From NCBI GenBank assembly GCA_029834535.1, contig JAQMWT010000528.1:46697-110696 (forward strand): a stretch of DNA of 64,000 bases, written 5' to 3'. Source of the stretch: Chrysophaeum taylorii. Taxonomy: Eukaryota > Sar > Pelagophyceae > Pelagomonadales > Pelagomonadaceae. Below, piece after piece: positions 14,494-64,000 of the stretch. How positions within the stretch are numbered: the first letter of the stretch is position 1; every line of letters starts with the position of its first letter. The translations under genes and the position numbers were made by a program. The notes under the pieces were generated by a model that searched no databases, was not told the origin of the DNA, and worked only from the letters and a program-made list of their open reading frames with translations.

Positions 14494-16235
14494 CTACTAA
14501 TCGACAGATGTTTGTGTCTGTTTGTCTGTCTGTTTGTCTTTAAATGTCGACTGTTGTAAGAAGGGGGTGTGTGTGGGGAGCATGAAGGATGTGGGTGGGT
14601 TTCTGGGGTATGAGGGATGTGCCTGACGGGCGGAGATAAGTACGCGGGACCTAGTCGGGGTCATCGCCGAGGCGTGGGGCAGGCGAAGAGAGGACCAAGG
14701 GCCCCGCCTTGGTAGGTCGTACGCATGCTGCCGCCGGACGTATGTGCGACGACGAAGGGTGACGTCCTGCTGGGATCGGGCGGCCTGGGTGGGGTTCCCC
14801 GAGGCGGCGACATGGGTGAGGGCGGTGAGGGCACAGCGAGCCCGGCCTAATGCGCTGGCGATCCCCCACTCACGGTAGATGCGGCGAGTTTTTTTTGGGC
14901 CGCCTTTGCCTCTGTGAAGTTGGCGCAGCCACTTGCCACCCAGCTTCGCGCAGCGATCCGCTCTGCGCATGTTTGGGCGAGAGCGTGGCACGCCGCGCTG
15001 GCCTCACCGAAGGCACCAAAGACGAGGCCGGCGACGGTGCCGTAGCTACGTAGCCGCTGTTCGACAGGGCCCAAGAAGCCAGGCGGTGGTGCTGTACCCG
15101 GCTGGGGGATGATGGCGTCGATGCCGCGGGCGTGAGCGAGGTATTCGTCGGAGTGGACTTGCGCTGCGCGCCGATCGACAGGCGACGGGTGGGAGGGATG
15201 GAGGGCGTGGGCCGTGTAGAACGAACCCCAAGCGAGGGTGTTTGTCCCCGACTTAGGGTAAGGATCAGGTAGGCGCGCGAGCCAGACATTGATGATCCTC
15301 CAAGCCGTCAACGGCGACCTCGCAGACTGTTTCCACGACCCGCGGCGGCTCTTTTAGCCAGGGCGCCATTCTCACGCCCCGTCGAAACGATGTCGTCGAT
15401 GCTGACAACGCCGCGCGCATGACCGCGGCCTTTTTTTCCCGGAGACGAGGCGTCGGAGTTCTTTTCGGCCGACTAGGTTGGGTCGGAAGACGACGCCTCG
15501 CTCTTTACAGTCGAGTTTTCAACTCCCTGACAACCAACGGCATGATGACTTTGAGCGCGCGCTTAAAGTCTTCGCAACCTCGAAAAACCGTCGCACGGCC
15601 ACTGCAACGGTACCAGATACATGATCGATCGTGTCGTTGTCACCGAGGCTCCTCCAACCTGTATCCCTTAAGGCCCGCCGACGCCAAACGATCACCAAGA
15701 GCCAGGGCCAGACGCCCCGCGAGGTCGGCGTCCTCTTGCCCAAGCCCGTCTTCTGCCACGTCCAGCTCTACGTGGCTCTCTGTCGATCGGCAACCCCGAG
15801 AATATGCTCTTCTGAGTCGACGACTCCACCCTACCCCACACGTGCTCCGCAATACCGATAAGCCCCCTCCCGGCGTCTACACGCACACTGTAGGTGAACT
15901 TAATGGGACCAGGTGAACTTACTTACTGAGGTTTGAGATTGGGACTAGGTGAACTGAGTGACCAGGTGAGCTTACTGGGGCCAGGTGAACTTACTGGGGT
16001 TTTTAGAGTAAACTCAAGGGTTGGCGGCGCGTGCGGATCAAAGCAGCTTGGATTGGCGGGGGTGAGAGCGACGAGCTCAAAGGAGTGGGTGTGAGCACGA
16101 GTGGGTTTACGCCGAATTTACTGGGGTTAGAGATTTGGACTAGGTGAACTTACTGACCAGGTGAACTTACTGGGACCAGGTGAACTTACTGGGGTTAGAG
16201 ATTGGGGCTAGGTGAACTTACTGGCCTGCACTTGT
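14494..16235 (-). mobile_element. retroelement copy 1, internally deleted derivative (1.74 kb)
   Basis: Both ends match the 3.7-kb copy at 56.9-60.6 kb. The 3' end (element sense) has the GTCT-type microsatellite followed by CGATTAGTAG. The 5' end has ACAAGTGCAGGCC and an array of GTAAGTTCACC motifs. The C-terminal quarter of the reverse-transcriptase ORF remains (minus, 14497-15240). It then jumps directly to 5' leader sequence, so about 2 kb is missing compared with the long copy. A T8 run at 14886, where the other copies have T3, breaks the frame. The copy cannot encode a full protein. No target duplication was recognised. Confidence 0.5.
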
Positions 16236-20718: not shown

Positions 20719-20945
20719 TAAATTTAAATGCAAGAGTTTTGAAATTTATAACAATTAACTCTTAAAAGGTGACATATAAAAATATTACAAAAAATTAGGA
20801 ATGTGACACTTATAACATTAAAAAAAAAAAGGTGACTAATAATACAATTTACATAATAACGTGACACTTAAAACATTTTACGTACATAAAATGACACTTA
20901 TTACAATTAAACGTACAAAAATTTCACATATAACAAATATCCTAA
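20719..20945. repeat. AT-rich spacer with irregular GTGACACTTATAACA-like repeats
   Basis: Between the hAT-like element and retroelement copy 2, five or six imperfect copies of a motif like GTGACACTTATAACATT recur every 35-45 nt. This is a strong composition change from the GC-rich surroundings. There is no gene here. Confidence 0.5.
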
Positions 20946-22002
20946 CTACTAATCGACAGATGTTTGTCTGTCTGTCTGTCTGTTTGTCTGTTTGTCCCTC
21001 GATTTAGGGTAAGGATCAGGTAGGCGCGAGAGTAAGGATCATGTAGGCCCGCGAGGCAGCCATTGATCCTCGAAGCCGTCTACGGCGACCTCGCAGACTA
21101 TTTCCACGACCCGCGGCGGCTCTTTTAGCCAGCGCGCCATTCTCACGCCCCGTTGAAACGATGTTGTCGATGCTGACAACGCGCGCATGACTGCGGCCTT
21201 TTATTCCCGGAGACGAGGCGTCGGAGTTCTTTTCGGCTGACTAGGCTGGGTCGGAAGACGACGCCTCGCTCTTTACAGTAGAGTTTTCAACTCCCTGACA
21301 ACCAACGGCATGCTGACTTTGATCGCGAGCTTAAAGTCTTCGCAACCTCGACCCGTCGCACGGCCACTGCAACGGTACCAGATACATGATCGATAGTGTC
21401 GTTGTCACCGAGGCTCCTCCAACCTGTATCCCTCAAGCCCCACCGACGCCAAACGATCAACAAGAGCCAGAGGCAGACGCCCCGCGAGGTCGGCGTCCTC
21501 TTGCCCAAGCCCGTCTTCTGCCACGTCCAGCTCTACGTGGCTCTCTGTCGATCGGCAACCCCGAGGATATCGTCTTCTGAGTCGACGACTCCACCCTACC
21601 CCACACGTGCTGCGCAATACCGATAAGCCCCCTCACGGCGTCTACACGCGCACTGTAGGTGAACTTACTGGGACCAGGTGAACTTACTGGGGTTGGGGAT
21701 TGGGACTAGGTGAGCTGAGTGACCAGGTGAACTTACTGAGACCAAGTGAACTTACAGGGGTTTTTAGAGTGAACGCAAAGGCGAGCGGCGTGTACGGATC
21801 AAAGCAGCTTAGATTGGCGGAGGTGAGAGCGACGAGCTCGAAGGAGAGTGGGGTGAGTGGATGTGAGCACGAGTGGGCTTACACCGAACTTACTGGGATT
21901 AGAGATTGGGACTAGGTGAACTTACTGGGACCAGGTGAACTTACTGGGGTTAGAGATTGGGACCAGGTGAACTTACTGGCGAACTTACTGGCCTGCACTT
22001 GT
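20946..22002 (-). mobile_element. retroelement copy 2, short derivative (1.06 kb)
   Basis: Same ends as the 3.7-kb copy, but the GTCT microsatellite is joined straight to the 5' leader. The entire reverse-transcriptase ORF is absent. The GTAAGTTCACC array (reverse complement of GGTGAACTTAC) is intact at 21656-22002. The element ends about 80 nt upstream of the ATG of the first RAP gene, so it may influence that promoter. Confidence 0.5.
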
Positions 22003-31336: not shown

Positions 31337-33055
31337 CTACTAATCGGCAGATGTTTGTCTGTCTGTTTGTTTGTTTGTCTTTAAAGGGCGACTGCTAAGA
31401 GGGGTGTGTGTGTGTGGTGCATGAAGGACGTGGGTGGTTTTGTGGGGTAGGAGGGATGTGCCTGACGGGCGGAGATAAGTATGCGGGACCTAGTATGCTT
31501 GTTTGTCTTTAAAGGTCGACTGCTAAGAGGGGTGTGTGTGTGTTTTTGTTTGTCTTTAAATGTCGACTGCTAAGAGGGGGGTGTGTGGGGGGGGCATGAA
31601 GGATGTGGGTGGGTTGTTTGTTTGTCTTTAAATGTCGACTGCTAAGAGGGGGGTGTGTGTGGGGAGCATGAAGGATGTGGGTGGGTTTGTGGGGTATGAG
31701 GGATGTGCCTGACGGGCGGAGATAAGTACGCGGGACCTAGTCGGGGTCATCGCCGAGGCGTGGGGCAGGCGAAGAGAGGACGGGCCCCGCCCGTAGGTCG
31801 TACGCATGCTGCCGCCGGACGTATGTGCGACGAAGGGTGACGTCCTGCTGGGATCGGGCGGCCTGGGTGGGGTTCCCCGAGGCGGCGACATGGGTGAGGG
31901 CGGTGAGGGCACAGTGAGCCCGGCCTAATGCGTTGGCGATCCCCCACTCACGGTAGATGCGGCGAGTTTGGGCCGCCTTTGCCTCTGTGAAGTTGGCGCA
32001 GCCGCTTGTCACCCAGGTTCGCGCAGCGATGCGCTCTGCGCATGTTTGGGCGAGAGCGTGGCACGCCGCGCTGGCCTCACCGAAGGCACCAAAGACGCGG
32101 CCGGCGACGGTGCCGTAGCTACGTAGCCGCTGTTCGACAGGGCCCAAGAAGCCAGGCGGTGGTGCTGTACCCGGCTGGGGGATGATGGCGTCGATGCCGC
32201 GGGCGTGAGCGAGGTATTCGGAGTGGACTTGCGCTGCGCGCCGATCGACAGGCGACGGGTGGGAGGGATGGAGGGCGTGGGCGGTGTACAACGAACCCCA
32301 AGCGAGGGTTTTGATGTCGTTTGTCCCTCGATATAGGATAAGGATCATGTAGGCCCGCGAGCCAGGCATTGATCCTCCAAGCCGTCTACGGCGACCTCGC
32401 AGACTATTTCCACGACCCGCGGCGGCTCTTTCAGCGCGCCATTCTCACGCCCCGTCGAAACGATGTTTTCGATGCTGACAACGCCGCGCGCATGACCGCT
32501 GCCTTTTTTTCTCGGAGACGAGGCGTCGGAGTTCTTTTTTTCGGCCGACTAGGTTGGGTCGGAAGACGACGCCACGCTCTTTACAGTCGAGTTTTCAACT
32601 CCCTGACAACCAACGGCATGCTGACTTTGAGCGCGAGCTTAAAGTCTTCGCAACCTCGTCGAAAAACCGTCGCACGGCCACTGCAACGGTACCAGATACA
32701 TGATCGATCGTGTTGTCGTCACCGAGGCTCCTCGAACCTGGATCCCTTAAGGCCCGCCGACGCCAAACGATCAATAAGAGCCGGGGCCAGACGCCCCGCA
32801 AAGTCTCGGCGTCCTCTTGCCCACAAGCCCGTCTTCTGCCACGTCCAGCTCTACGTGGCTCTCTGTCGATCGGCAACCCCGAGGATATCCTCTTCTGGGT
32901 CGACGACTCCACCCTACCCCACACGTGCTGCGCAATACCGATAAGCCCCCTCCCGGCGTCTACACGCGCACTGTAGGTGAACTTACTGGGACCAGGTGAA
33001 CTTACTTACTGGGGTTTGAGATTGGGACTAGGTGAACTGACTGGCCTGCGCTTGT
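31337..33055 (-). mobile_element. retroelement copy 3, internally deleted derivative (1.72 kb)
   Basis: Same two ends and same type of internal deletion as copy 1. The ORF is cut at the codons of the DIK motif (near 32312) and joined to the 5' leader (TTTGTCCCTCGAT). The 3' region is odd: the segment TTTAAATGTCGACTGCTAAG with its GT-rich tail is present about four times in tandem (31380-31660). The coding remnant (minus, 31737-32310) is open but lacks the reverse-transcriptase core. Confidence 0.5.
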
Positions 33056-51693: not shown

Positions 51694-52879
51694 CTAATTG
51701 TAGTAGGGGTCCGCGCCCCAGAGGTAGTACTTGAGGAAGGACCATATGGCCCCGAGGGTCGTGGTGGTGGTGATGGTGGAGTCGGCGCGAAGCGCGTTTC
51801 TATCGAATATGCGTCGGACGGTGACGCGGAGCGCGTTCTGGGCACCGCGCCACGACGCGTAACAGCCGTGCGTTCCCCAGGTACAGGCGTGTCCGTGGAA
51901 GATTCGAAGTTCGCCCCTTTGATTGAGCTCGAGACGGTCCGCCTTTCCCCGCGAATTCGAGGCCCACGTGATCGCCTGCACCGCGTCCGGATGACCGGAA
52001 CATACCACGAGATTGCCGTCGCGCTGCAGCAGGACGAATCCCGGCCGCGTCGCGAGCTCCTCGGCGCCGCTCTGCCACACGATTCGACGGCTGCCGGATT
52101 CGCGGACTCTTAAGTGGCCGTCGGGTTCGACCGACGCGTCGTGCGATCCGTCGCGCGCGACGAGATGTTCCCCCGAGAACAAAGGCGTCGACGCGTTCAA
52201 CACGTGGGGCGACACATCCTCGTACGACGACTCTTCGTTCCACTCGTACGGCTTCCCGACCTTAGTCCACTGTCCGTTCTCCAGCTCGTAGTCTTGGGCG
52301 TCGTAGAACTTCTTGTCGTCCAGCGTCGTCACCTACGCGTTACAATCTCCTCGCACCACAGCATGTCCTCTACATCAGGACGCGAGCACAGCCCGTCGTC
52401 ATCAGGACGCGAGCACAGCCTGTCATCATCAGGGCACAAGCACAGCATATCCTCTACATCAGGACGCTGGGATCGACAGTGACTCGAGTGAGTTTCTTGT
52501 GGCCGCGCGGTATGAAGAGCTCGTCTACGGCGAAGAGGCCCGAACCTTTGTCCCAAAAATTCGACCGCGGTGGGCCCGCAGGATCGACCTCGCGCGTCGA
52601 GAGGTCGAAGCTCCGCGCGGGCCGCCACTGCTCCCACTTTCGTCGCTTCGCGCGGTCGCTCAGAATTTCAAAAGCTCGCGACACCTCCGCCATCTTCTTC
52701 GCATCGCCACCTTTGTCGGGATGAAGCTGCCGCGCCAGACCGTGGTACGCTTTCCGCAGCTCCTCGGTCGTCGCCGACGGCGTCACCCCGAGCGTCGCGT
52801 AAAGATCCACGCCCTCGATATCTTCAAAGCTCTCGTCGCCAACCACGACGACGCCCACCACCACCAACAACACCCACAT
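51694..52879 (-). CDS. secreted J-domain protein fused to bulb-type lectin domain
   Basis: Two exons, 52879-52484 and 52332-51694, joined by a 151-nt GT-AG intron in phase 0, give 344 residues. Residues 1-14 are a hydrophobic signal sequence (MWVLLVVVGVVVVG). Residues about 24-85 form a J-domain with an intact HPD (53-55; QLHPDKGGDAKKM), so it should stimulate an Hsp70, probably BiP in the ER. A conserved linker (FAVDELFIPRGHKKLTR across the junction) leads to a bulb-type mannose-lectin-like domain with DGHLRVRES and the sugar-site-like LQRDGNLVVCSG (Q-x-D-x-N-x-V). The intron donor is GTCACT, a poor match to consensus. If it is not used, exon 1 ends eight residues later at a stop (TVDPSVLM), separating the two halves. 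The role is inferred: an ER co-chaperone for glycoproteins. Confidence 0.5.
52333..52483 (-). repeat. intron made almost wholly of tandem repeats
   Basis: The intron of the J-domain/lectin gene consists of four imperfect copies of a 25-40-nt unit containing GCGTCCTGATG and GCTGTGCT. This is unlike the non-repetitive introns elsewhere in the window. Confidence 0.5.
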
Positions 52880-52923
52880 CCTTCAACCAACGGCCCTACC
52901 AACGGAATCACTCAGGGTAAGCA

Positions 52924-54159: not shown

Positions 54160-54397
54160 ATGCATGAGGGGCATGCTACAACAAGCAAAAGCGCGTAAAA
54201 TGGAACTTCGCTCACTACAGTTCAGACTATGTGCTTTTAATGAACAACGCGAAATGCTCAAACTTTATTCCACCCTCATGGAACGAGTAAGTTTTTACGT
54301 CCCATGGCTTAAAACCATCTTGGAGTCAATGCATTCGCAGCTGCCTTACATACGCAAGCATTTCCCACCTCCCGTATGACGCAAGGTTACAACACGT

Positions 54398-56160
54398 TTG
54401 CTCCACACAGTAACTTCATCTCCTAGCCCACGAATACCTACTGTAACTCTGCTTTGCTCTGGGATGTCCACTCCTGCATTCCTGGCTTGCGCTTCAAATG
54501 ACATGCAAATCAACATCAACGTTATAGTTCTTGTTGAGAGCGACGACAATATCACGCACATGCTACGAAGACGTTTTGGTAATTCCATCGAAGTTTTCCC
54601 ATCCTTACCTAAGTTTTTGACATATCTCCATCGAGCATCGGACGTTGAACGTGCACGATATTACACTGACATGGTAGAATTGACATCACCATGCACAAAT
54701 CGCAACATAATCAACGGGAGATCCATTTCCACCTTCGAGCGCGATATGGATGATTCTTTGTTCCCAAGTGCTCTAAGTGTACTTGAGCTTCCAAAGCCGC
54801 TCGTTCTCTTCATGGAAATGACTCCACCACCACACTCCGCATCATACGAAGATCATATACGAGTTGCCAATCTCATCTTCTCAACGATGCACTGTACGGT
54901 GGACATATGTGACCGATTTCCATGCTATTTATGTGGAGATTATCAAAAGCCAGAGAAAGATGGATCCTCGTCGCACGCAAATATAACACCGGCCCTCTTG
55001 ATCTGCCTTCATGGCCTAATAAACGAGTCACTTCTTTTCTGGATATTGCAGACCACGCTAACTCCATTAGCCGCAAGTTAATAGTCGACGAACCTTGGAC
55101 GCAGGTCTTTCCTGACATACCATTTGTGTCCTCACCTAAAACCTATAATATTTTTAGTCGTACTGGATCCGTGCGCTTAACTGTGACTGAGCTTGAAACC
55201 TTAACTATGCTGTTCCTTCGTCTGCACTCTAATAAAACAGTCGAACATCCCAGTCGAGATGAAATGGACGGCATTTCTAACTTTCGCCTGGGATTCTTGA
55301 CTAATTCAAGAAAACCACTAGCTTGCATGAGATCCCCTATTGAACTCAAAGCTTTTGTGCTCCTCTATAACATTATGGGACGATTATTCCCTAAATCCAT
55401 CACATTACCTGTGTCCTTTCGTATTACAACTATCGAATCTAACCAACCATCTCACAGGTTATTCTTAAATAAATCCTCTACTTCATCCATCATTTACATC
55501 ACTGGTGGAAAAGACATACAGGCGGAGACATAACAGTTTCTAACTCTTCTTCTAAATACCAGGCACCCATAAATGCTTTTGGCGAAACCTACGCCCTTTT
55601 AACACACGATGCCGGAATCGATAAGACTGCTTCCCTCGAACCAGTTACCAGTTTTCTTTGGCTTTGCCAAGCATACCATCATAATAATGAAAATCAAGAC
55701 ACGCGTCGTCTAGTACAAGCACTGGTTTCATATACCTCTCCTGCATTTCACGATTCTTTTGTCTTCTACCCTCAGGAAAATCTTCTTGAATTTATCGACA
55801 AAATATTTGCTTTAAGTGACATGCATTTGTCCCAAAGCAGATATTTGGGCTTTATAGCATCAAGCGATAGGAAGATGGGTGCCAAAGTTCACTCTATATA
55901 TACTCACACTCCTACCATTCGTGGATTTGCAAATATGCTGGTGTACGACCCACGACTCGATCGCATTCGACACTACTCAACTCGCGAATTGGCACGCGCC
56001 AATAACTTCACAGCGTACCAAATCAATTTTCTTTTGTCTTTGTCCCCTGACCTATGCTGCGATATCATCGCAAATGCTATTCCAGCTGGAACATATCATA
56101 CAATTTATAAACACTTGTGTCAGCTTGTTTACGACTTGCGTACATTAACACTATCACCAT
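54398..56160 (+). pseudogene. C5-cytosine DNA methyltransferase-like region of the copia element
   Basis: Motifs of C5 methyltransferases appear in the right order. Motif I-like TLLCSGMSTPAFLACA is at 54446-54493, followed by an acidic strand VIVLVESDD. A motif IV-like ELTSPCTNRN has the catalytic Pro-Cys at 54689-54694. Motif VI-like LVLFMEM is near 54800-54820. Motif VIII-like ARERWILVARKY is near 54950-54985. After a long variable region, motifs IX/X read RIRHYSTRELARANNF (about 55962-56009) and IIANAIPAG (about 56065-56091). One frame change lies inside motif VIII and another near 55530. The enzyme would transfer methyl groups to cytosine in DNA. Retrotransposon-borne methyltransferases are known in some algae and animals. 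The identification rests on motifs read by eye. Confidence 0.5.
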
Positions 56161-56296
56161 CGTTTGACCCTGATCACGCTCCTCTAACCAAAAACTATAG
56201 GTCAACCTTCTTCACAAATGTATTCCCAACAGATACATCTTTAACGTTACACCAGAGTTCTATTACTATGTTCTACATTTCTAATAAAAAACTCTT

Positions 56297-56914
56297 ATGT
56301 TGTGTGATACTATCACTCCAAACCACGAACTTACTTCTTTTCATACTGATTCAGTAGCTCATGCTTTCATCTCTAATATCTTATCCGCAGATATATCATC
56401 TCCTACTAAAGAAAAACAAATACCCCTCATAACGCCAAGACAGCTCCATGAGAAGCATGCGCCCTTCGATAAGAAAGTCCATGCCAGGGGCACCCTCGCA
56501 TTTCGAGATGCGCAACAACGAGCTACCAATTTTTACAACATTCACCATTCCAGTGATTCTCAAGACATAAAAGCTGTTCAGGTTATTGCCAGTCCTGGAC
56601 ACCACCCATCTGACGTACCCTACCGTAAGTTCTGTGTGGATTGTACGATTCTCAAAAAAACGCTTTCCTCATCCACACCACCTTATCAAGCAACCATCAT
56701 TCGAAAAAATTTTTCAACCTGGTGAAGCTTGGGCATGTGACGGTGGTTACGTCTCTGTGCTCTCGGAATGGGGATCCTTTCGACATATCATTGTCTTCAA
56801 GTGTCTCATTTCTAAATTTCTGTTAGTGTACTTTTGTCGTAGCACTAACTCCAGCGAATTTTGTAACGCCCTTGAGTTTGTTCGTAATTTTTTCTCTCCT
56901 TATGTTCATCCTAA
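56297..56914 (+). pseudogene. copia integrase, zinc finger and first catalytic strand
   Basis: HHPSDVPYRKFCVDC (about 56600-56650) gives the His/Cys zinc-binding end. A shifted frame then continues PGEAWACDGGYVSVLSEWG (about 56722-56778), with the first catalytic Asp, and SSEFCNALEFVRNFF. The reading stops where retroelement copy 4 begins. Frame changes at about 56670 and upstream at 56330. Confidence 0.5.
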
Positions 56915-59900
56915 CTACTAATCGACAGATGTTTGTCTGTCTGTCTGTCTGTCTGTTTGTTTGTCTTTAAATGTCGACTGCTAAGAGGGGGGTGTGTGTG
57001 GGGAGCATGAAAGATGTGGGTGGGGTTGTGGGGTATGATGGATGTGCCTGACGGGCAGAGATAAGTACGCGGGACCTAGTCGGGGTCATCGCCGAGGCGT
57101 GGGGCAGGCGAAGAGAGGACCAAGGGCCCCGCCTTGGTAGGTCGTACGCATGCTGCCGCCGGACGTATGTGCGACGAAGGGTGACGTCCTGCTGGGATCG
57201 GGCGGCCTGGGTGGGGTTCCCCGAGGCGGCGACATGGGTGAGGGCGGTGAGGGCACAGCGAGCCCGGCCTAATGCGTTGGCGATCCCCCACTCACGGTAG
57301 ATGCGGCGAGTTTGGGCCGCCTTTGCCTCTGTGAAGTTGGCGCAGCCGCTTGTCACCCAGGTTCGCGCAGCGATGCGCTCTGCGCATGTTTGGGCGAGAG
57401 CGTGGCACGCCGCGCTGGCCTCACCGAAGGCACCAAAGACGAGGCCGGCGACGGTGCCGTAGCTACGTAGCCGCTGTTCGACAGGGCCCAAGAAGCCAGG
57501 CGGTGGTGCTGTACCCGGCTGGGGGATGATGGCGTCGATGCCGCGGGCGTGAGCGAGGTATTCGGAGTGGACTTGCGCTGCGCGCCGATCGACAGGCGAC
57601 GGGTGGGAGGGATGGAGGGCGTGGGCGGTGTACAACGAACCCCAAGCGAGGGTTTTGATGTCGTAGAGTTGCTCCTTGTTGTCGAGTGTGGTGAGGATGT
57701 CTGGGACGACTTGACGTCGGGCGAGATTGCCTCGGTACCGGCCGTAGAGGCGCGTGCGAATGGTAGGGGCGACGACGTCAGCAAAAATGCCGAAAACCTC
57801 GGACAGGGCTGGGATGCCGGCCTCTTCGGTGGTGGAGAGGGCGCAATCGAGCAAGCTGTCGTGCCAGGTGGTCCGCGCTCCTCCGCGGTTGACAAGGTTG
57901 GCCTGCGTGAGAAGCACCTTGCCGTGAGCGTCGAGAACGACGTCAGTGCCCAGAATGCGAGTGCCCACGAGGCCCAAACAAGCTGGAGAGGGGTAGCCAA
58001 AGTACTGGGCACACATCTCAGCCCAGCAGCGGTTGGGGATTTGAAGGCCAGAGCTGGGCCACGAGCTGATGAACGTGGTCGAGAAGCGATCCCATGAGGA
58101 CGCCGCTACTCGAAGTGCATCGGTGATGGGAAGGGTGGCCGCAAGGCGCTGGAGTGCAGTGGCCCGAGCTGTCTCGCGCTGGGAGGTTAGAGCACGCTGG
58201 AGTTGGGGTATGAGCACGGGTGTCGAGATGGTGGGGTCGACGAGGACGCCCATGGAGACGAATTCGTGGGAGAGAGGACCGTCGACGAGATGAACGTTGG
58301 CGGGGTCGCCGGAACCAGCGCCGCCGTGGGAAGCCAGCGTGGTACGGAGATCAGCCCGAAGTCCGTCCCACGCAGTCTCGAGTGCTCGCCCCAGGCGGCA
58401 ACCGGATGCGAGGAGGTGGTACCAACGGTGCAACTCGTTACCTGTGCGAAAAGAAGTGGCACCCAGGACCGAGGCGAGGCGGGGGAGGTAGCCAGGGACC
58501 TCCACGGCACCCGTAGGATCGCGAAGGTCGACGAGGTGTGGGAGGGCCTGGGCCGCCGTGGCAACAAAGGCGGCGGGGCTGAGTTCGGCGCAGGAGCGAA
58601 TGCCGCCACCCCCACTTCGAGCAGGAAGACGGAGGCGTTGGAGGACGATGCCGGTGGAGTCAAAAACCTGACGCGGATCTGCGCCAAGTGCTGTGGCGAC
58701 GAAGCTGAGGACGGCAACGTCGAAGCGGCGGAGCGCGCTCAAGGCATTGGTGGGGTAGCAGTGTTGCGCGATGTAGTCCATGCGCGGGGCGATGCAGTAG
58801 CGGCCCAACGAGTACATGCAGTGGAGGGAGACGTTCTGGAGCTTGGTGCGAATACGGCTCATGTAGCTCACCTGAGCGTCAACCTCGCGTTGCAAGGTAG
58901 CTTCGACATAGGCATCTCCGGCGTGTCCGGGGGAGCCGATGGGCACACCGTAGATTACAAGCCCGTCGGCGACAACGGGGATACCAGCAAGAGTACGCGT
59001 GCCGTCAGGCGCAACTTGGACGTGGTCGTGAACATCGGGGTGATCGAGAAGACCCATGCCAAGTGCCGGACAGAACGCCACGCACTTGTCGAGGCGGAGC
59101 TCCTCGCCGCTAGCTTGGATGTCGCGGGTGTACTGCAGGAGGGCGTCGACAACCTCACGAGGGGAACCAGAGATGACGCCGTTGTCCATGCCAAATCGGG
59201 CGTAGCCGGCACATGAACGTAAGCGGGTGTCAAGGGCCTGTGCGGAGTCATGCGTTGCCAGACAGTACGCCGGTGGATAGGTGGGGTCGTCTTGCTGGCC
59301 GCCTTCTTGAGAGTCGAAGGGGGCGCGATCGAGGCCGGTGGGGCCGTGGAGGGCCACCCAGGATGCCGGCCGTAATTGCTTGAACATAAAGTGGCCAAAG
59401 GCACGCAGCTTAGCGTTGGCGTGGTTTGCGAGTTTGTCCACGACGGTCCGGCGCTTGAGCTCGTTGAAGGCGTTGCGTTTGTCCAGCTTGATGATGACCT
59501 GGTCGGGGTACTGCTCCGCGTGGGTGCGGACGCCAAAGACGAGGCGCGAGGGGCCGCCCTTGACCCCGACGGCAACGTTGATCGGGTACAGTGCCTCAGA
59601 GAGCTTGGAGTGGAGGCTACGCACAAGGCACCGTCCAGTGGCACGGCGGCGGACGGTGCCATGTCCCCCGATTTGGGGTAAGGATCAGGTATGCACGCGA
59701 GCCAGACAGTGATCCTCAAAGCCGTCTACGGCGACCTCGCTGACTGTTTCCACGACCCGCGGCGGCTCTTTCAGCGCGCCATTCTCACGCCCCGTCGAAA
59801 CGATGTTGTCGATGCTGACAACGCGCGCATGACCGTGGCCTTTTTTTCCCGGAGACGAGGCGTCGGAGTTCTTTTCGGCCGACTAGGTTGGGTCGGAAGA

Positions 59901-60637
59901 CGACGCCTCGCTCTTTACAGTCGAGTTTTGAACTCATGGACAACCAACGGCATGCTGACTTTGATCGCGAGCTTAAAGTCTTCGCAACCTCGACCCGTCG
60001 CACGGCCACTGCAACGGTACCAGATACATGATCGATCGTGTCGTTGTCACCGAGGCTCCTCCAACCTGTATCCCTTAAGGCCCGCCGACGCCAAACGATC
60101 AACAAGAGCCAGGGCCAGACGCCCCGCGAGGTCGGCGTCCTCTTGCCCAAGCCCGTCTTCTGCCACGTCCAGCTCTACGTGGCTCTCTGTCGATCGGCAA
60201 CCCCGAGAATATGCTCTTCTGAGTCGACGACTCCACCCTACCCCACACGTGCTGCGCAATACCGATAAGCCCCCTCCCGGCGTCTACACGCGCACTGTAG
60301 GTGAACTTACTGGGACCAGGTGAACTTACTGGGGTTTGAGATTGGGACTAGGTGAACTGAGTGACCAGGTGAACTTACTGGGACCAGGTGAACTTACTGG
60401 GGGTTTTAGAGTAAACTCAAAGGTTAGCGGCGTGTGCGGATCGAAGCAGCTTAGATTGGCGGAGGCGACAGCGACGAGCTCGAAGGAGTGGTGTGAGCAC
60501 GAGTGGGTTTACGCCGAACTTACTGGGGTTAGAGATTTGGACTAGGTGAACTTACTGACCAGGTGAACTTACTGGGACCAGGTGAACTTACTGGGGTTAG
60601 AGATTGGGACTAGGTGAACTTACTGGCCTGCACTTGT
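56915..60637 (-). mobile_element. retroelement copy 4, longest copy (3.72 kb)
   Basis: The reference copy of the family. Element sense is minus: the 5' leader at 60637-59700 has about nine GTAAGTTCACC-type motifs, a single ORF follows, and the 3' end has a (GTCT)n tract and CGATTAGTAG. It is inserted in the copia integrase. The ORF lacks the N-terminal part of a typical reverse transcriptase. Leader frames at 59785-60150 and 59719-58955 may hold the missing portion in broken form. The 3' flanks of the five copies begin TTAGG, TTAGG, TAAGG, TAAGG and TTAAG, suggesting a preferred target. Confidence 0.5.
56967..59624 (-). CDS. reverse transcriptase with restriction-like endonuclease motif
   Basis: An open frame of 885 residues. 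It begins inside the fingers (VGVKGGPSRLVFGVR, 19-33). Catalytic motif A is IIKLDKRNAFNELKR (44-58), and motif B is EGGQQDDPTYPP (107-118), where QQGDP is usual. Motif C is YARFGMDNGVISGS (141-154), where YxDD or FxDD is usual, so the second Asp is Asn. Near residues 640-660 VVPDILTTLDNKEQLYDIKT has a Pro-Asp, then 12 residues, then Asp-x-Lys, the layout of the restriction-like endonuclease of R2-type LINEs. The C-terminal part (LVFGAFGEAS and onward) is well kept in copies 1 and 3. No zinc knuckle is seen. Whether the enzyme is active is doubtful because of motifs B and C. The start is probably not the true one. Confidence 0.5.
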   Translation of the reverse strand: MRSLHSKLSEALYPINVAVGVKGGPSRLVFGVRTHAEQYPDQVIIKLDKRNAFNELKRRTVVDKLANHANAKLRAFGHFMFKQLRPASWVALHGPTGLDRAPFDSQEGGQQDDPTYPPAYCLATHDSAQALDTRLRSCAGYARFGMDNGVISGSPREVVDALLQYTRDIQASGEELRLDKCVAFCPALGMGLLDHPDVHDHVQVAPDGTRTLAGIPVVADGLVIYGVPIGSPGHAGDAYVEATLQREVDAQVSYMSRIRTKLQNVSLHCMYSLGRYCIAPRMDYIAQHCYPTNALSALRRFDVAVLSFVATALGADPRQVFDSTGIVLQRLRLPARSGGGGIRSCAELSPAAFVATAAQALPHLVDLRDPTGAVEVPGYLPRLASVLGATSFRTGNELHRWYHLLASGCRLGRALETAWDGLRADLRTTLASHGGAGSGDPANVHLVDGPLSHEFVSMGVLVDPTISTPVLIPQLQRALTSQRETARATALQRLAATLPITDALRVAASSWDRFSTTFISSWPSSGLQIPNRCWAEMCAQYFGYPSPACLGLVGTRILGTDVVLDAHGKVLLTQANLVNRGGARTTWHDSLLDCALSTTEEAGIPALSEVFGIFADVVAPTIRTRLYGRYRGNLARRQVVPDILTTLDNKEQLYDIKTLAWGSLYTAHALHPSHPSPVDRRAAQVHSEYLAHARGIDAIIPQPGTAPPPGFLGPVEQRLRSYGTVAGLVFGAFGEASAACHALAQTCAERIAARTWVTSGCANFTEAKAAQTRRIYREWGIANALGRARCALTALTHVAASGNPTQAARSQQDVTLRRTYVRRQHAYDLPRRGPWSSLRLPHASAMTPTRSRVLISARQAHPSYPTTPPTSFMLPTHTPLLAVDI

Positions 60638-60677
60638 GTACAACTAAAACAAATTTATTGTGATTCCTTTAAACCCT
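60638..60677 (+). pseudogene. 40-bp piece of copia integrase between two insertions
   Basis: Read in frame 1 this AT-rich spacer gives VQLKQIYCDSFKP. That fits the missing second catalytic Asp region expected between the integrase pieces at 56.9 kb and 61.8 kb. If so, copies 4 and 5 inserted separately, 40 bp apart, into one integrase gene. Confidence 0.5.
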
Positions 60678-61783
60678 ACAAGTGCAGGCCAGTAAGTTCA
60701 CCTAGTCCCAATCTCTAACCCCAGCAAGTTCACCTAATCCCAATAAGTTTCATATAAGTTCACCTGGTCAGTAAGTTCACCTAGTCCAAATCTCTAACCC
60801 CAGTAAGTTCACCTGGTCCCAGTAAGTTTCATATATGTTCACCTGGTCAGTAAGTTCACCTAGCTCACACCCACTCCTTCGAGCTCGTCGCTCTCGCCTC
60901 CGCCAATCTAAGCTGCTTTGATCCGCACACGCCGCCAACCTTTGAGTTTACTCTAAAAACCCTTAACTCTAAAAACCCCAGTATGTTCACCTGGTCCCAG
61001 TTTCACCTGATCACTCAGCTCACCTAGTCCCAATCCCCAACCCCAGTAAGTTCACCTGGTCCCAGTAAGTTCACCTACAGTGCGCGTGTAGACGCCGGGA
61101 GGGGGCTTATCGGTATTGCGCAGCACGTGTGGGGTAGGGTGGAGTCGTCGACTCAGAAGAGGATATCCTCGGGGTTGCCGATCGACAGAGAGCCACGTAG
61201 AGCTGGACGTGGCAGAAGACGGGCTTGGGAAAGAGGACGCCGACCTCGCGGGGCGTCTGGCCCTGGCTCTTGTTGATCGTTTGGCGTAGGCGGGCCTTAA
61301 GCGATACAGGTTGGAGGAGCCTCGGTGACAACGACACGATCGATCATGTATCTGGTACCGTTGCAGTGGCCGTGCGACGGGTCGAGGTTGCGAAGACCTT
61401 AAGCTCGCGATCAAAGTCAGCATGCCGTTGGTTGTCAGGGAGTTGAAAACTCTACTGTAAAGAGCGAGGCGTCGTCTTCCGACCCAGCCTAGTCAGCCGA
61501 AAAGAACTCCGACGCCTCGTCTCCGGGAAAAAAGGCCGCGGTCATGCGCGCGTTGTCAGCATCGACAGCATCGTTTCGACGGGGCGTGAGAATGGCGCGC
61601 TGAAAGAGCCGCCGCGGGTCGTGGAAATAGTCTGCGAGGTCGCCGTAGACGGCTTGGAGGATCACTGTCTGGCTCTCGCGCCTACCTGATCCTTACTCTC
61701 GCGCCTAACCTGATCCTTACCCTAAATCGAGGGACAAACAAACAGACAGACAAACAAACAGACAAACATCTGTCGATTAGTAG
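60678..61783 (+). mobile_element. retroelement copy 5, short derivative, inverted (1.11 kb)
   Basis: The leader end (ACAAGTGCAGGCC) faces copy 4 and the (GTCT)n end faces right. Like copy 2, it joins the leader directly to the 3' tail and has no reverse-transcriptase ORF. The junction region carries a duplicated GGATCAGG-type segment (61684-61722). Leader identity to copy 4 makes 59.7-61.7 kb a large inverted repeat. Confidence 0.5.
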
Positions 61784-61787
61784 TTAA

Positions 61788-62189
61788 GATTTATCTCAGC
61801 ATGTTACAACCCCCTTCCGTGTGGAACATGGTATTAATATGTCCGCATCCCCCCCTTACTTACATGTCTTTGATCATGAAGTCGAAGCCGCTGTTGGTCA
61901 CATAGCCACTGCCGCGTCTACACGACTCAGGCATATGCTGAATGTATCCTATAAAGGTCACCCCCTAATAGATCCGGCACCACACTACCCGTGGGCTGTT
62001 ATACATGCTATCCAATCATACTATCTCCTCCCTAACGTTTCCCTCGAACGTATTTATAATAAAGTCCTAAGCCCCCAACAAGTTTTGTTGGACCAATGCA
62101 ATGTTCCCCAACAAGACTACCTCAAACCCTTTGGTTCTGTTTGTTATTTGCATTTGGAACCTAACGAATTTCATAAATATGAACCCTGA
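61788..62189 (+). pseudogene. copia integrase, end of catalytic core
   Basis: Resumes with DLSQHVTTPFRVEHGINMS, then YLHVFDHEVEAAVGHIATAA, which contains the Glu expected to complete the DDE triad. It continues through WAVIHAIQSYYLLPNVS and FGSVCYLHLEPNEFHKYEP. This is the usual copia integrase C-terminal side, leading into a linker. Confidence 0.5.
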
Positions 62190-62199
62190 TGCCGCCCCT

Positions 62200-64000
62200 A
62201 CATCTACTTATGCGGTGCTAACGTTATAAACCCTTTAATAACACCCCATGTTAATCATTTAGCCGATGTTGTCCTTAATCCTGAAAACGGTCAATTCCGT
62301 GTTTCATCTAAACTGACTTTCCCGCTTCTTATTTCTACATCTCCTCCTGATTATGAACAACATCCACCTCCCGCACCTTCACTCGACATTGCCTTCTCTG
62401 TTCACAGCACCCCAATGATGCGGCGCAGAGGGGGAATGCTATGCCTACCGACACTGACCATGAGAGGGGGACTCCTTCTTCTCATCTCCATGCTCCCTCT
62501 CCCGCTCCCGCATGTGCTCCAGCTGCTCCTGCACCCGCCACTTCCGCCACCACACCTACATGTAAAGTGTCTCCCGACACTCTGCCACTTTTACCATCTT
62601 ATCGGTCTCTCTATTCCCAGGATGTCCTCTGTCTCACCCGTGGTCCTCATCACCCTCAGCCTCGTCGCAAAACCAATCTCAAGGATGTTCTTACTCGTAT
62701 TGCTTCGCCTACTGTCGCCGCTAATAAACAAGCCGGGGGTACGCTTGCCGACTTCAAGTACGACATATCCAAGCAGTACATTACATTCTGCGACCCCACC
62801 CTCCACTCCCTTCATATCGCTCATGGCATCCACTGGACGGCTATACCTCCAAGAGGGGGAATTTGCACCATCCCTTCATCACCAAGTGCACCAAGCGATT
62901 TCACAGTCCCCTTCAGTTATGTGTCATAGGAGCCATAGCCACCCATCGCCTGATGCTCCTCATGTCCACTTCTACGACGACGTCAATTTTGCCGACTTTC
63001 ACCTTCCTCAAGCTCTCGTTCATTTAATTTCTGAACATGCTCACGCCTTTCAAGTTCCTCCCGCTCAATATGCTTATGCTTTGTTCACGCCCCACTCAAT
63101 TTTGGATCATAATGACGCTTCTTATGGTGCTTCCGAGCCTCATCTCTCCGCCATCGAAGACTATATCACCGTGCAATCGCATTACATTGAAGCCCACCTT
63201 GGTGATGCCCCTCTACTAGTCGTTCAGCTCATCGAAGATCCCGATCACGCTCATCTGCCCGATAATGTCGCTTCTTACGCAATTACTCATCTGACGACGA
63301 CTCATGATCCCAGCACGGTTGGTTCGGACGAATACAAGATTCAAGCCAAAGATATCAAAATTGATGAATATGAATTGAACCGCCTCAAAGGTCTCTCAGA
63401 CGCTGATCGCAAAGCTTATGTTGCTGCCATCTCCAAAGAGATTTTTGACATTGTTAAGTTTGGCTGCTTTAAACTAGCGCTGCCAATGGTCAACTCAATG
63501 CCTATTGACACCCGTCTCGTCCTACGTATAAAAACCAACGCTGCTGGTCAGTACATTAAACATAAAGCACGCCTGGTACTACGAGGATTCTTAGCCTCTC
63601 TGGGCACCGATTTCTTCAATACACTCAGCCCTATGGCACAGCTTACCGGCATCCGTTGTGTTTTGGCGCTAGCAGCTCATCTGCGACTTCCCGTCTATCA
63701 TGTCGACGTCCCTAACGCTTTTGTTCAAGCCCCCATCGATTCACATGTCTACGTTAAACTGCCACAAGGCATTTACCTTCTCGATCCCGAAGATACTAAA
63801 TACCAAGGCCGCCGTCTCCCAAAGCTACTTAAATCTCTCTATGGATTACGTCAGAGCCCCTGCCCTTTGGAATCAAACCATAAACAAACAGCTTCTTTGG
63901 GATCCATTAGGCATACACGATTTTCGAACAGCATGCGACGCTAAGTCCAGTACAGGGACACATCATTTACGCTAAAGTCCAAACTGACGCTACATTTTTA
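62200..64000 (+). pseudogene. copia reverse transcriptase, truncated by window end
   Basis: After a Pro-rich linker in two frames (frame changes near 62430 and 62930), the reading enters an acidic region and then the RVT_2 domain: HKARLVLRGFLASLGTDFFN, TLSPMAQLTGIRCVLALAA, YHVDVPNAFVQAPIDSHVYV (motif A Asp) and KLLKSLYGLRQSP. A one-base break near 63860 then shifts the frame to ALWNQTINKQLLWDPLGIHD. The catalytic YVDD box and RNase H lie beyond the window. It is clearly Ty1/copia, not gypsy. Frame breaks show the copy is inactive. Confidence 0.5.

Follow-up and report, generated by a model that had tools for sequence, protein, structure and literature searches.

A Ty1/copia-type lineage with a predicted C5-type methyltransferase domain in Pol in Chrysophaeum taylorii

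Cytosine methylation is a common weapon against transposons. An element with its own silencing-type enzyme turns the question round, and it may be asked whether such an element hides from the host, tames itself or needs the mark. This question is raised here by a stretch of 64,000 nucleotides of Chrysophaeum taylorii DNA (the window), in which the first-pass annotation had described a cytosine-methyltransferase-like gene just upstream of a copia integrase on the same strand. In our study, the window copy is identified from its letters as a dead member of a Ty1/copia-type lineage with a predicted C5-type methyltransferase in Pol, and its relatives in the genome were used to explore the identity, the expression and the putative role of this domain.

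The window copy and family A

The element, designated family A, is present in the window as a broken copy. Its features are given below, motifs I, II, IV, VI, IX and X being read from the window letters.

54175-56909 (+): left part of the broken copia copy (family A), with the end of the gag-protease ORF, the UGA, the methyltransferase domain and the start of the integrase
54176-54376 (+): last 67 residues of the gag-protease ORF (tblastn of L015 ORF1, 97% identity)
54377-54379 (+): in-frame UGA at the boundary between gag-protease and methyltransferase-pol
54434-55026 (+): predicted catalytic part of the C5 methyltransferase, motifs I-VIII (94% in tblastn with the L015 segment; C5 methyltransferases matched by the profile of natural copies)
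54446-54463 (+): motif I, TLLCSG
right after motif I (+): motif II, VLVESDD
54692-54694 (+): Cys codon of motif IV, TSPC
54815-54817 (+): Glu codon of motif VI, EMTPP
54.93-54.98 kb (+): motif VIII, GDYQ...RERW, spanning the frame change near 54,945
55030-55964 (+): region between motifs VIII and IX, over 300 residues, in the place of the target recognition domain and under purifying selection (tblastn segment 55030-56024, with motif IX as its last part)
about 55965-56012 (+): motif IX, IRHYSTRELARANN
55965-56090 (+): motifs IX (RHYSTRELARANN) and X (ANAIP), aligned with the IX-X region of family B by hhalign
56064-56090 (+): motif X, IIANAIP
56444-56909 (+): first part of the integrase (rve E 0.00098, below the Pfam cut-off; tblastn)
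56910-61788 (no strand assigned): nested insertion splitting the integrase (blastn gap 56909/61789; inverted ends 56908-56965 / 61733-61790)
61789-62210 (+): second part of the integrase (tblastn, 94%)
63426-64000 (+): copia reverse transcriptase (RVT_2), cut at the window end (RVT_2 E 3.3e-22 for 62190-63941; tblastn)

Motifs I, II, IV, VI, VIII, IX and X were found in order in the plus-strand frames between 54380 and 56921, which confirms the motif observation of the first-pass annotation (I, the Pro-Cys of IV, VI, VIII, IX and X). The window copy is broken, since several frame changes interrupt these frames (near 54,945, 55,512, 56,290-56,303 and 56,655). The copia fragments at 54-57 and 62-64 kb belong to one element because the nested insertion cuts the integrase, which resumes at 61789; about 40 element bases are missing at the insertion site. 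The gene was thus correctly placed before a same-strand copia integrase, which is followed by the RVT_2 match. The missing gag and protease, which the first-pass annotation had noted, are also accounted for. All 15 other copies compared with the window by blastn start to align at 54175-54177, therefore the window copy is 5'-truncated, and the truncation has left just the last 67 residues of the upstream ORF. Fourteen of these copies extend to 56909 (L023 ends sooner), at identities of 70-97%.

The nested insertion at 56910-61788 has inverted ends and large inverted arms (59678-60373 / 61002-61696), and no duplication was noticed at its site. Its minus-strand ORF of 905 aa (56967-59684) resembles a LINE-type reverse transcriptase by eye, with no Pfam match. 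Parts of this insertion recur in the window at 15255-16235, 20938-21980 and 32339-33046 and also in L011. Elsewhere in the window, an open frame at 52454-52882 on the minus strand resembles a J-domain (DnaJ-like) protein, as read by eye from the ORF list.

In the assembly (70.8 Mb, 697 contigs), a 172-aa query from the window's own frame gave at least 150 scored places of family A among 841 candidates, all at E <=2.0e-88, and a more diverged family A copy used as query gave at least 150 scored places among 927 candidates. Fifteen longer stretches were chosen for long frames or divergence, not randomly, and their frames were taken unrepaired. By tblastn, the methyltransferase is followed by the integrase in 14 of the 15 and then by the reverse transcriptase in 13, and it is preceded by a protease segment in 14 and by a gag segment in 13. 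The exceptions are L021 (reverse transcriptase not found), L012 (gag and protease not found), L014 (gag not found) and L023, a stretch of 5.8 kb only where the contig ends, in which integrase and reverse transcriptase were not found. The gag and protease segments are named by their position and by a D-T-C-A or D-G-G-A motif seen by eye, with no Pfam match. These copies supplied the linkage and also the intact ORF that the first-pass annotation had sought outside the window: L009 has one natural ORF of 1,464 aa running from the methyltransferase via the integrase into the start of the reverse transcriptase. In L015, gag-protease and methyltransferase share a frame with a UGA between them, and RT-RNase H lies in an overlapping frame. 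The order in family A is gag-protease, in-frame UGA, methyltransferase, integrase, reverse transcriptase and RNase H; this full order is a composite of several natural copies, since no single stretch had all parts in one frame. Integrase before reverse transcriptase on the same strand, as found in the window and in 13 of the 15 long loci, is a feature of the Ty1/copia class, and the reverse transcriptase is of RVT_2 type (146 bits in L015 and 135.3 bits in family B, described below; cut-off 31.6). Taken together, the identification as a copia element with a methyltransferase is supported. No LTR pair was seen in stretches of up to 10 kb, which may reach neither element end.

An ORF of about 500 aa was also observed 3' of RNase H in family A (L011:8229-9701, L014:8755-9999, and on the minus strand L019:1-1551 and L009:1-1158). 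Its end resembles a coiled coil, it has no Pfam match over the cut-off (best FAM76, E 0.0041), and its dN/dS is 0.07-0.18 in five of six pairs, the sixth being saturated. It may be part of the element's 3' end or of a neighbouring unit. At L014:557-2452, a family A copy lies in frame within the methyltransferase of a copy of a further family, C, giving a fused open frame of 632 aa.

Identity of the domain and its conservation

DNA_methylase was not found in the direct Pfam scan of the window pieces, and single-sequence Pfam, NCBIfam and PDB searches with families A and C returned no significant methyltransferase. Against PF00145 the best result for these families was 14.7 bits (E 0.017-0.021, the latter for L021), which lies below the cut-off of 22, and one of the nine members of alignment A3 matched this profile at all. 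PDB profile searches with families A and C likewise gave no methyltransferase. The C5 profile match expected from the first-pass annotation thus failed at the level of single sequences and was obtained from profiles of natural copies. The profile of the catalytic part of A and C (motifs I-VIII; seven of the nine rows of alignment A3, two partial rows being dropped) matched seven C5-type methyltransferases with a score of 48.6, E 2.2e-6 and a probability of 89.2%. These references comprise four phage-annotated sequences, one unannotated phage match and two host genes. None of 200 column shuffles scored as high (14.2 plus or minus 2.6, maximum 26.6), and the reversed profile scored 12.4. In this comparison the catalytic Cys, the motif VI Glu and motif VIII are in register with those of the C5-type methyltransferases.

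The motifs are also kept among the 29 separate family A copies (35 rows minus six duplicate, second or family C rows, removed by hand). The PC of motif IV is present in 27 (L014 has Arg-Cys, and in L002 it was not found), the motif VI Glu in all 29, and Q.R.R in 27, the differing ones being L022 and the window copy, where a frame change lies. Patterns IX and X were detected in 23 and 22 copies, respectively; the remaining copies pool broken frames, locus ends and differing letters, and the X pattern contains the letters that were tested. The motif IV Cys and motif X, on which the first-pass annotation had staked its reading, are therefore retained in most copies. As in PF00145 and the bacterial and phage C5 methyltransferases, motifs I, II, IV, VI, VIII, IX and X are ordered in family A. 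The differences from those enzymes lie in motif I, which is without the usual second glycine in families A and C, in motif IV, which reads PCT and not PCQ, in the more than 300 residues between VIII and IX, and in the scores of A and C below the cut-off.

Two further families, B and C, settle the identity of the domain as a methyltransferase. In family C, a relative of A, the domain is as in A, with 43% identity over 730 aa and in the same place. A PF00145 search of the genome gave 57 matches, and 20 were returned as loci and read; two of them look like host genes (L024 and L025) and 18 (L026-L043) form the copia-type family B, which is distant from A. FTLPCQH and VEN[VA] were found in all 18 family B loci, the protease motif DGGAS in 14 and ANAVP in 12. 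Family B has a natural frame of 1,952 aa, read over two adjacent stretches, with DGGAS, PF00145 (34.5 bits, cut-off 22), rve (E 0.003, below the cut-off) and RVT_2. The family B profile, made from the two full-length rows out of 11, matched the same C5-type methyltransferases with a score of 62.9, which was reached by none of 100 shuffles. In the PDB profile search, family B matched M.HhaI only at E 0.12, and its phage matches were two records of one phage (vir335, E 3e-6) annotated as DNA methyltransferase.

These results bear on a chance resemblance, in which an AT-rich polyprotein spacer would contain methyltransferase-like words. The insignificance of family A alone in the Pfam and PDB searches would fit such a spacer. 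The profile-profile score that no shuffle reached, the 43% identity kept in family C by the whole region with its ordered motifs, and the significant PF00145 domain in the same slot of family B all speak against it and make it highly improbable. The comparison of copies thus establishes the predicted domain, its place and its presence in families A, B and C.

Selection was analysed using pairs of copies. In family A, dN/dS of motifs I-VIII is 0.016-0.101 (median 0.057) in the 67 of 104 usable pairs with dS>0.3, from 15 copies. For family B, 36 of 45 pairs from ten of 11 rows gave a range of 0.103-0.202 and a median of 0.156. In ten listed family A pairs, the VIII-IX region has dN/dS of 0.06-0.13 and the IX-X region 0.09-0.16. 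For RT-RNase H of family A, most pairs have values of 0.04-0.19, and five pairs of low dS (0.20-0.41) have values of 0.22-0.67. For gag the values are 0.08-0.19 where dS>0.3. They rise to 0.45 in L015-L013, the single close pair, and to 0.44-0.50 in three pairs involving L014, where most of this frame belongs to the methyltransferase of family C. Many of the dS values are above 1 and, owing to saturation, uncertain; even so, an unused passenger would not show such a pattern. Few stretches of the element are under stronger constraint than the catalytic part, and the domain is conserved by selection in A and B.

Low dN/dS alone is not proof of catalysis, and the domain may instead have lost catalysis and be retained as a module for DNA binding or target choice in the integration complex. 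In A and C, motif I and the position following the catalytic Cys deviate from the usual form, which is consistent with such a module. The motif IV Cys and the motif VI Glu matter chiefly for catalysis, and their retention in family A (27 and 29 of the 29 copies), together with PCQ and VEN in 18 of 18 family B loci, argues for an enzyme. A non-catalytic domain is hence considered unlikely, and an active methyltransferase is the reading followed below.

The methyltransferase of A and C is common by descent. In the profile comparison, A against B alone gave a probability of 0.6% and E 0.096, which became 4.0% and E 0.011 with C added; the A-B profile score of 25.5 compares with a shuffle maximum of 23.5 and 20.8 for the reversed profile. 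Since this comparison is weak, the link between A and B rests on the slot and the motifs more than on the score. A tree with the seven references, in which long branches meet, did not separate one from several captures for A/C and B. The same slot, a similar long region before motif IX and the weak IX-X match would favour one capture for A, B and C. No relatives were found in viral_contigs for A, B, C or the integrase-RT part of B, nor in genome_contigs for A and C together; family B had no plasmid match and family C no phage match. These collections hold viruses, bacteria, archaea and plasmids, so that absence from them says little for a eukaryotic element.

Expression and putative role

A TGA lies in the same frame between gag-protease and methyltransferase in 27 of the 29 separate family A copies; in L019 the frame is shifted just upstream, and L023 has other letters at the site. 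Of the 27 copies, 24 have the context GTA-TGA-CGC, L020 has ATA-TGA-CGC, and L010 and L054 have GTA-TGA-CAC; none of the 27 has an ATG between this stop and motif I. Even copies with a synonymous divergence (dS) close to 1 or higher have this stop in common. In family C, one copy (L057) was read to a stop in its own place, with TGA-CTA. The conserved UGA suggests a putative readthrough. Regarding RNA structure after the UGA, four 128-nt folds were no better than shuffles. A hairpin of 5 bp, which begins two bases downstream of the stop (columns 5-9/21-25, 11 copies), has two pairs with changes on both sides; among 500 shuffles, its pairing percentage, its cell count and its covariation score are each reached by 12, its pair count by 63 and its number of further pair types by 451. 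The hairpin is suggestive only, because the stretch is coding and the hairpin was chosen by eye from the same sequences.

In the available part of PMC3542737, RNA viruses are described as using UGA-CGG or UGA-CUA as a type II readthrough context, in many cases with a downstream stem-loop. Family C shares UGA-CUA, whereas family A has UGA-CGC (UGA-CAC in two copies), which is close to these contexts but not one of them, and the 5-bp hairpin only. The Candida element Tca2, as described in the accessible text of PMC2194720, resembles family A in having an in-frame UGA between gag and pol; unlike in family A, this UGA lies upstream of the protease, and no methyltransferase is mentioned in that text. 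According to the same text, the local Tca2 sequence is insufficient for readthrough in baker's yeast.

Family B is arranged differently. Among the 14 loci whose protease motif could be read, eight (L029, L031, L032, L034, L035, L040, L041 and L042) have a gag frame that overlaps the protease-methyltransferase frame with a -1 shift; the shift lies at a T-rich stretch immediately upstream of the gag stop. The shift site reads TTTTTCGCTGA in four of these eight loci and is a one-base variant of it in the other four, and a programmed frameshift is possible. Under either arrangement the methyltransferase, like the reverse transcriptase, would be produced in minor amounts as part of Pol.

The proposed role is built on this arrangement. 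Gag-protease would be the main product, and some ribosomes would pass the UGA to give a gag-protease-methyltransferase-integrase-RT-RNase H fusion, which would carry the methyltransferase with the reverse transcriptase into the virus-like particle. The position of the methyltransferase beside reverse transcriptase and integrase in Pol suggests action on cDNA in the particle, and the element's own cDNA is most likely the substrate. The new double-stranded cDNA would be methylated before integration, a new insertion would then enter looking like methylated host DNA, and the DNMT5/SRA-type machinery of the host could maintain the mark. Taken as a whole, this reading of a C5-type methyltransferase in Pol between protease and integrase, made by UGA readthrough and methylating its own cDNA in the particle, is in our judgement evenly poised between right and wrong.

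Cytosine methylation in the host is likely, because a DNMT5-like gene and one SRA-domain match were found in the genome. The former, L025 (G000:C621), is a 2,086-aa frame with a C5 methyltransferase and a SNF2 domain (37.1 bits, cut-off 24.9), and a RING match between the two was not significant (E 0.23). The combination of C5 methyltransferase and SNF2 in one frame is that of DNMT5, and L025 looks like a putative host gene of this kind. The other host locus, L024 (G000:C634), is a 360-aa frame matching PF00145 that looks, by reading of its motifs, like a putative DNMT2-like gene; no relatives of it were found in viral_contigs. On the other strand of L024 a light-harvesting protein gene was observed (PDB match to a chlorophyll a/c-type antenna, best E 9.1e-18), which makes an alga whose plastid is of the red lineage the most likely host.

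In the element copies, CpG observed/expected is 0.97 (1.29 in window positions 1-50000), and C/T differences over 165 pairs are 0.081 at CpG, a mild excess over the 0.046-0.076 found at other sites. With no strong CpG decay or marked shortage, the copies give no sign of heavy CpG methylation, which speaks against the cDNA reading. Copies without a clear DNA-methylation footprint would also be expected if an active enzyme acted on RNA, namely the element transcript or the tRNA primer of reverse transcription. DNMT2 methylates a tRNA, and a domain made as a Pol fusion would be packaged with reverse transcriptase and RNA. RNA methylation is raised by de Mendoza et al. 2018 (PMC5890265, in the part available) for LINE-borne enzymes. 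The long VIII-IX region is unlike DNMT2, and the DNMT2-like host gene L024 is a compact frame; an RNA substrate is regarded as unlikely. Putative action on the host genome was also considered, in which methylation of the target site or its vicinity damps the new copy and makes it less costly for the host, thereby maintaining the element. The persistence of at least 150 family A copies in a 71-Mb genome agrees with this, and the slowing of an element's own retrotransposition is an option listed in the accessible part of PMC5890265; we nevertheless consider it quite improbable. Methylation of the element's own cDNA thus stays the preferred reading.

A broader proposal can be made on the history of the lineage. 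An algal copia lineage may have taken up a C5 methyltransferase once, before the split of A, B and C, and kept it as a standing part of Pol. This would be a deeply diverged clade with its own large recognition region, delivered in the particle at a fixed low ratio through recoding (by UGA readthrough in A and C and by a -1 frame change upstream of the protease in B), with an obligatory pre-methylation of the cDNA or the primer tRNA. We offer it tentatively, as possible but rather less than evenly probable. The natural open-frame copies make an activity test possible without rebuilding.

Comparison with known retrotransposon methyltransferases

C5 methyltransferases carried by retrotransposons are described in the available part of PMC5890265 for SymbioLINE-Dnmt, SymbioDIRS-Dnmt3 and KnitGypsy-Dnmt3, and Ka/Ks of the Klebsormidium element is given there as < 0.2. 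Two DIRS-borne DNMTs are reported in that text to methylate CG in yeast; the LINE and Gypsy enzymes were inactive in yeast, which the authors regard as an inconclusive result. For the DIRS elements, it is proposed there that the enzyme acts on cDNA in the particle. Copia is stated in the same text to be the most abundant superfamily in Symbiodinium and to be without any DNMT domain, and because of this statement a copia carrier can be considered a new variation on a known theme.

A retrotransposon-embedded DNMT3 is noted in one sentence of PMC12344493 (2025), citing the 2018 paper. Since the elements reported in the available part of the cited paper are LINE, DIRS and Gypsy, this wording could be an error or could refer to something not yet described. 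The accessible text of PMC12344493 describes no Copia element, and that of PMC9998398 no copia-borne methyltransferase. Beyond that single sentence, no copia-borne methyltransferase was found in the literature, the coverage of which was partial and is not proof of absence.

The elements described in the available part of PMC5890265 and family A share a captured C5 methyltransferase in the element's own coding frame, many copies and purifying selection, and in the DIRS and Gypsy elements the methyltransferase lies in the Pol polyprotein, as in family A. The carriers described there are LINE, DIRS and Gypsy, whereas here the carrier is Ty1/copia, with integrase before RVT_2 and the domain between protease and integrase. 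Copia would hence be the fourth class after these three, with at least three families in one small algal genome.
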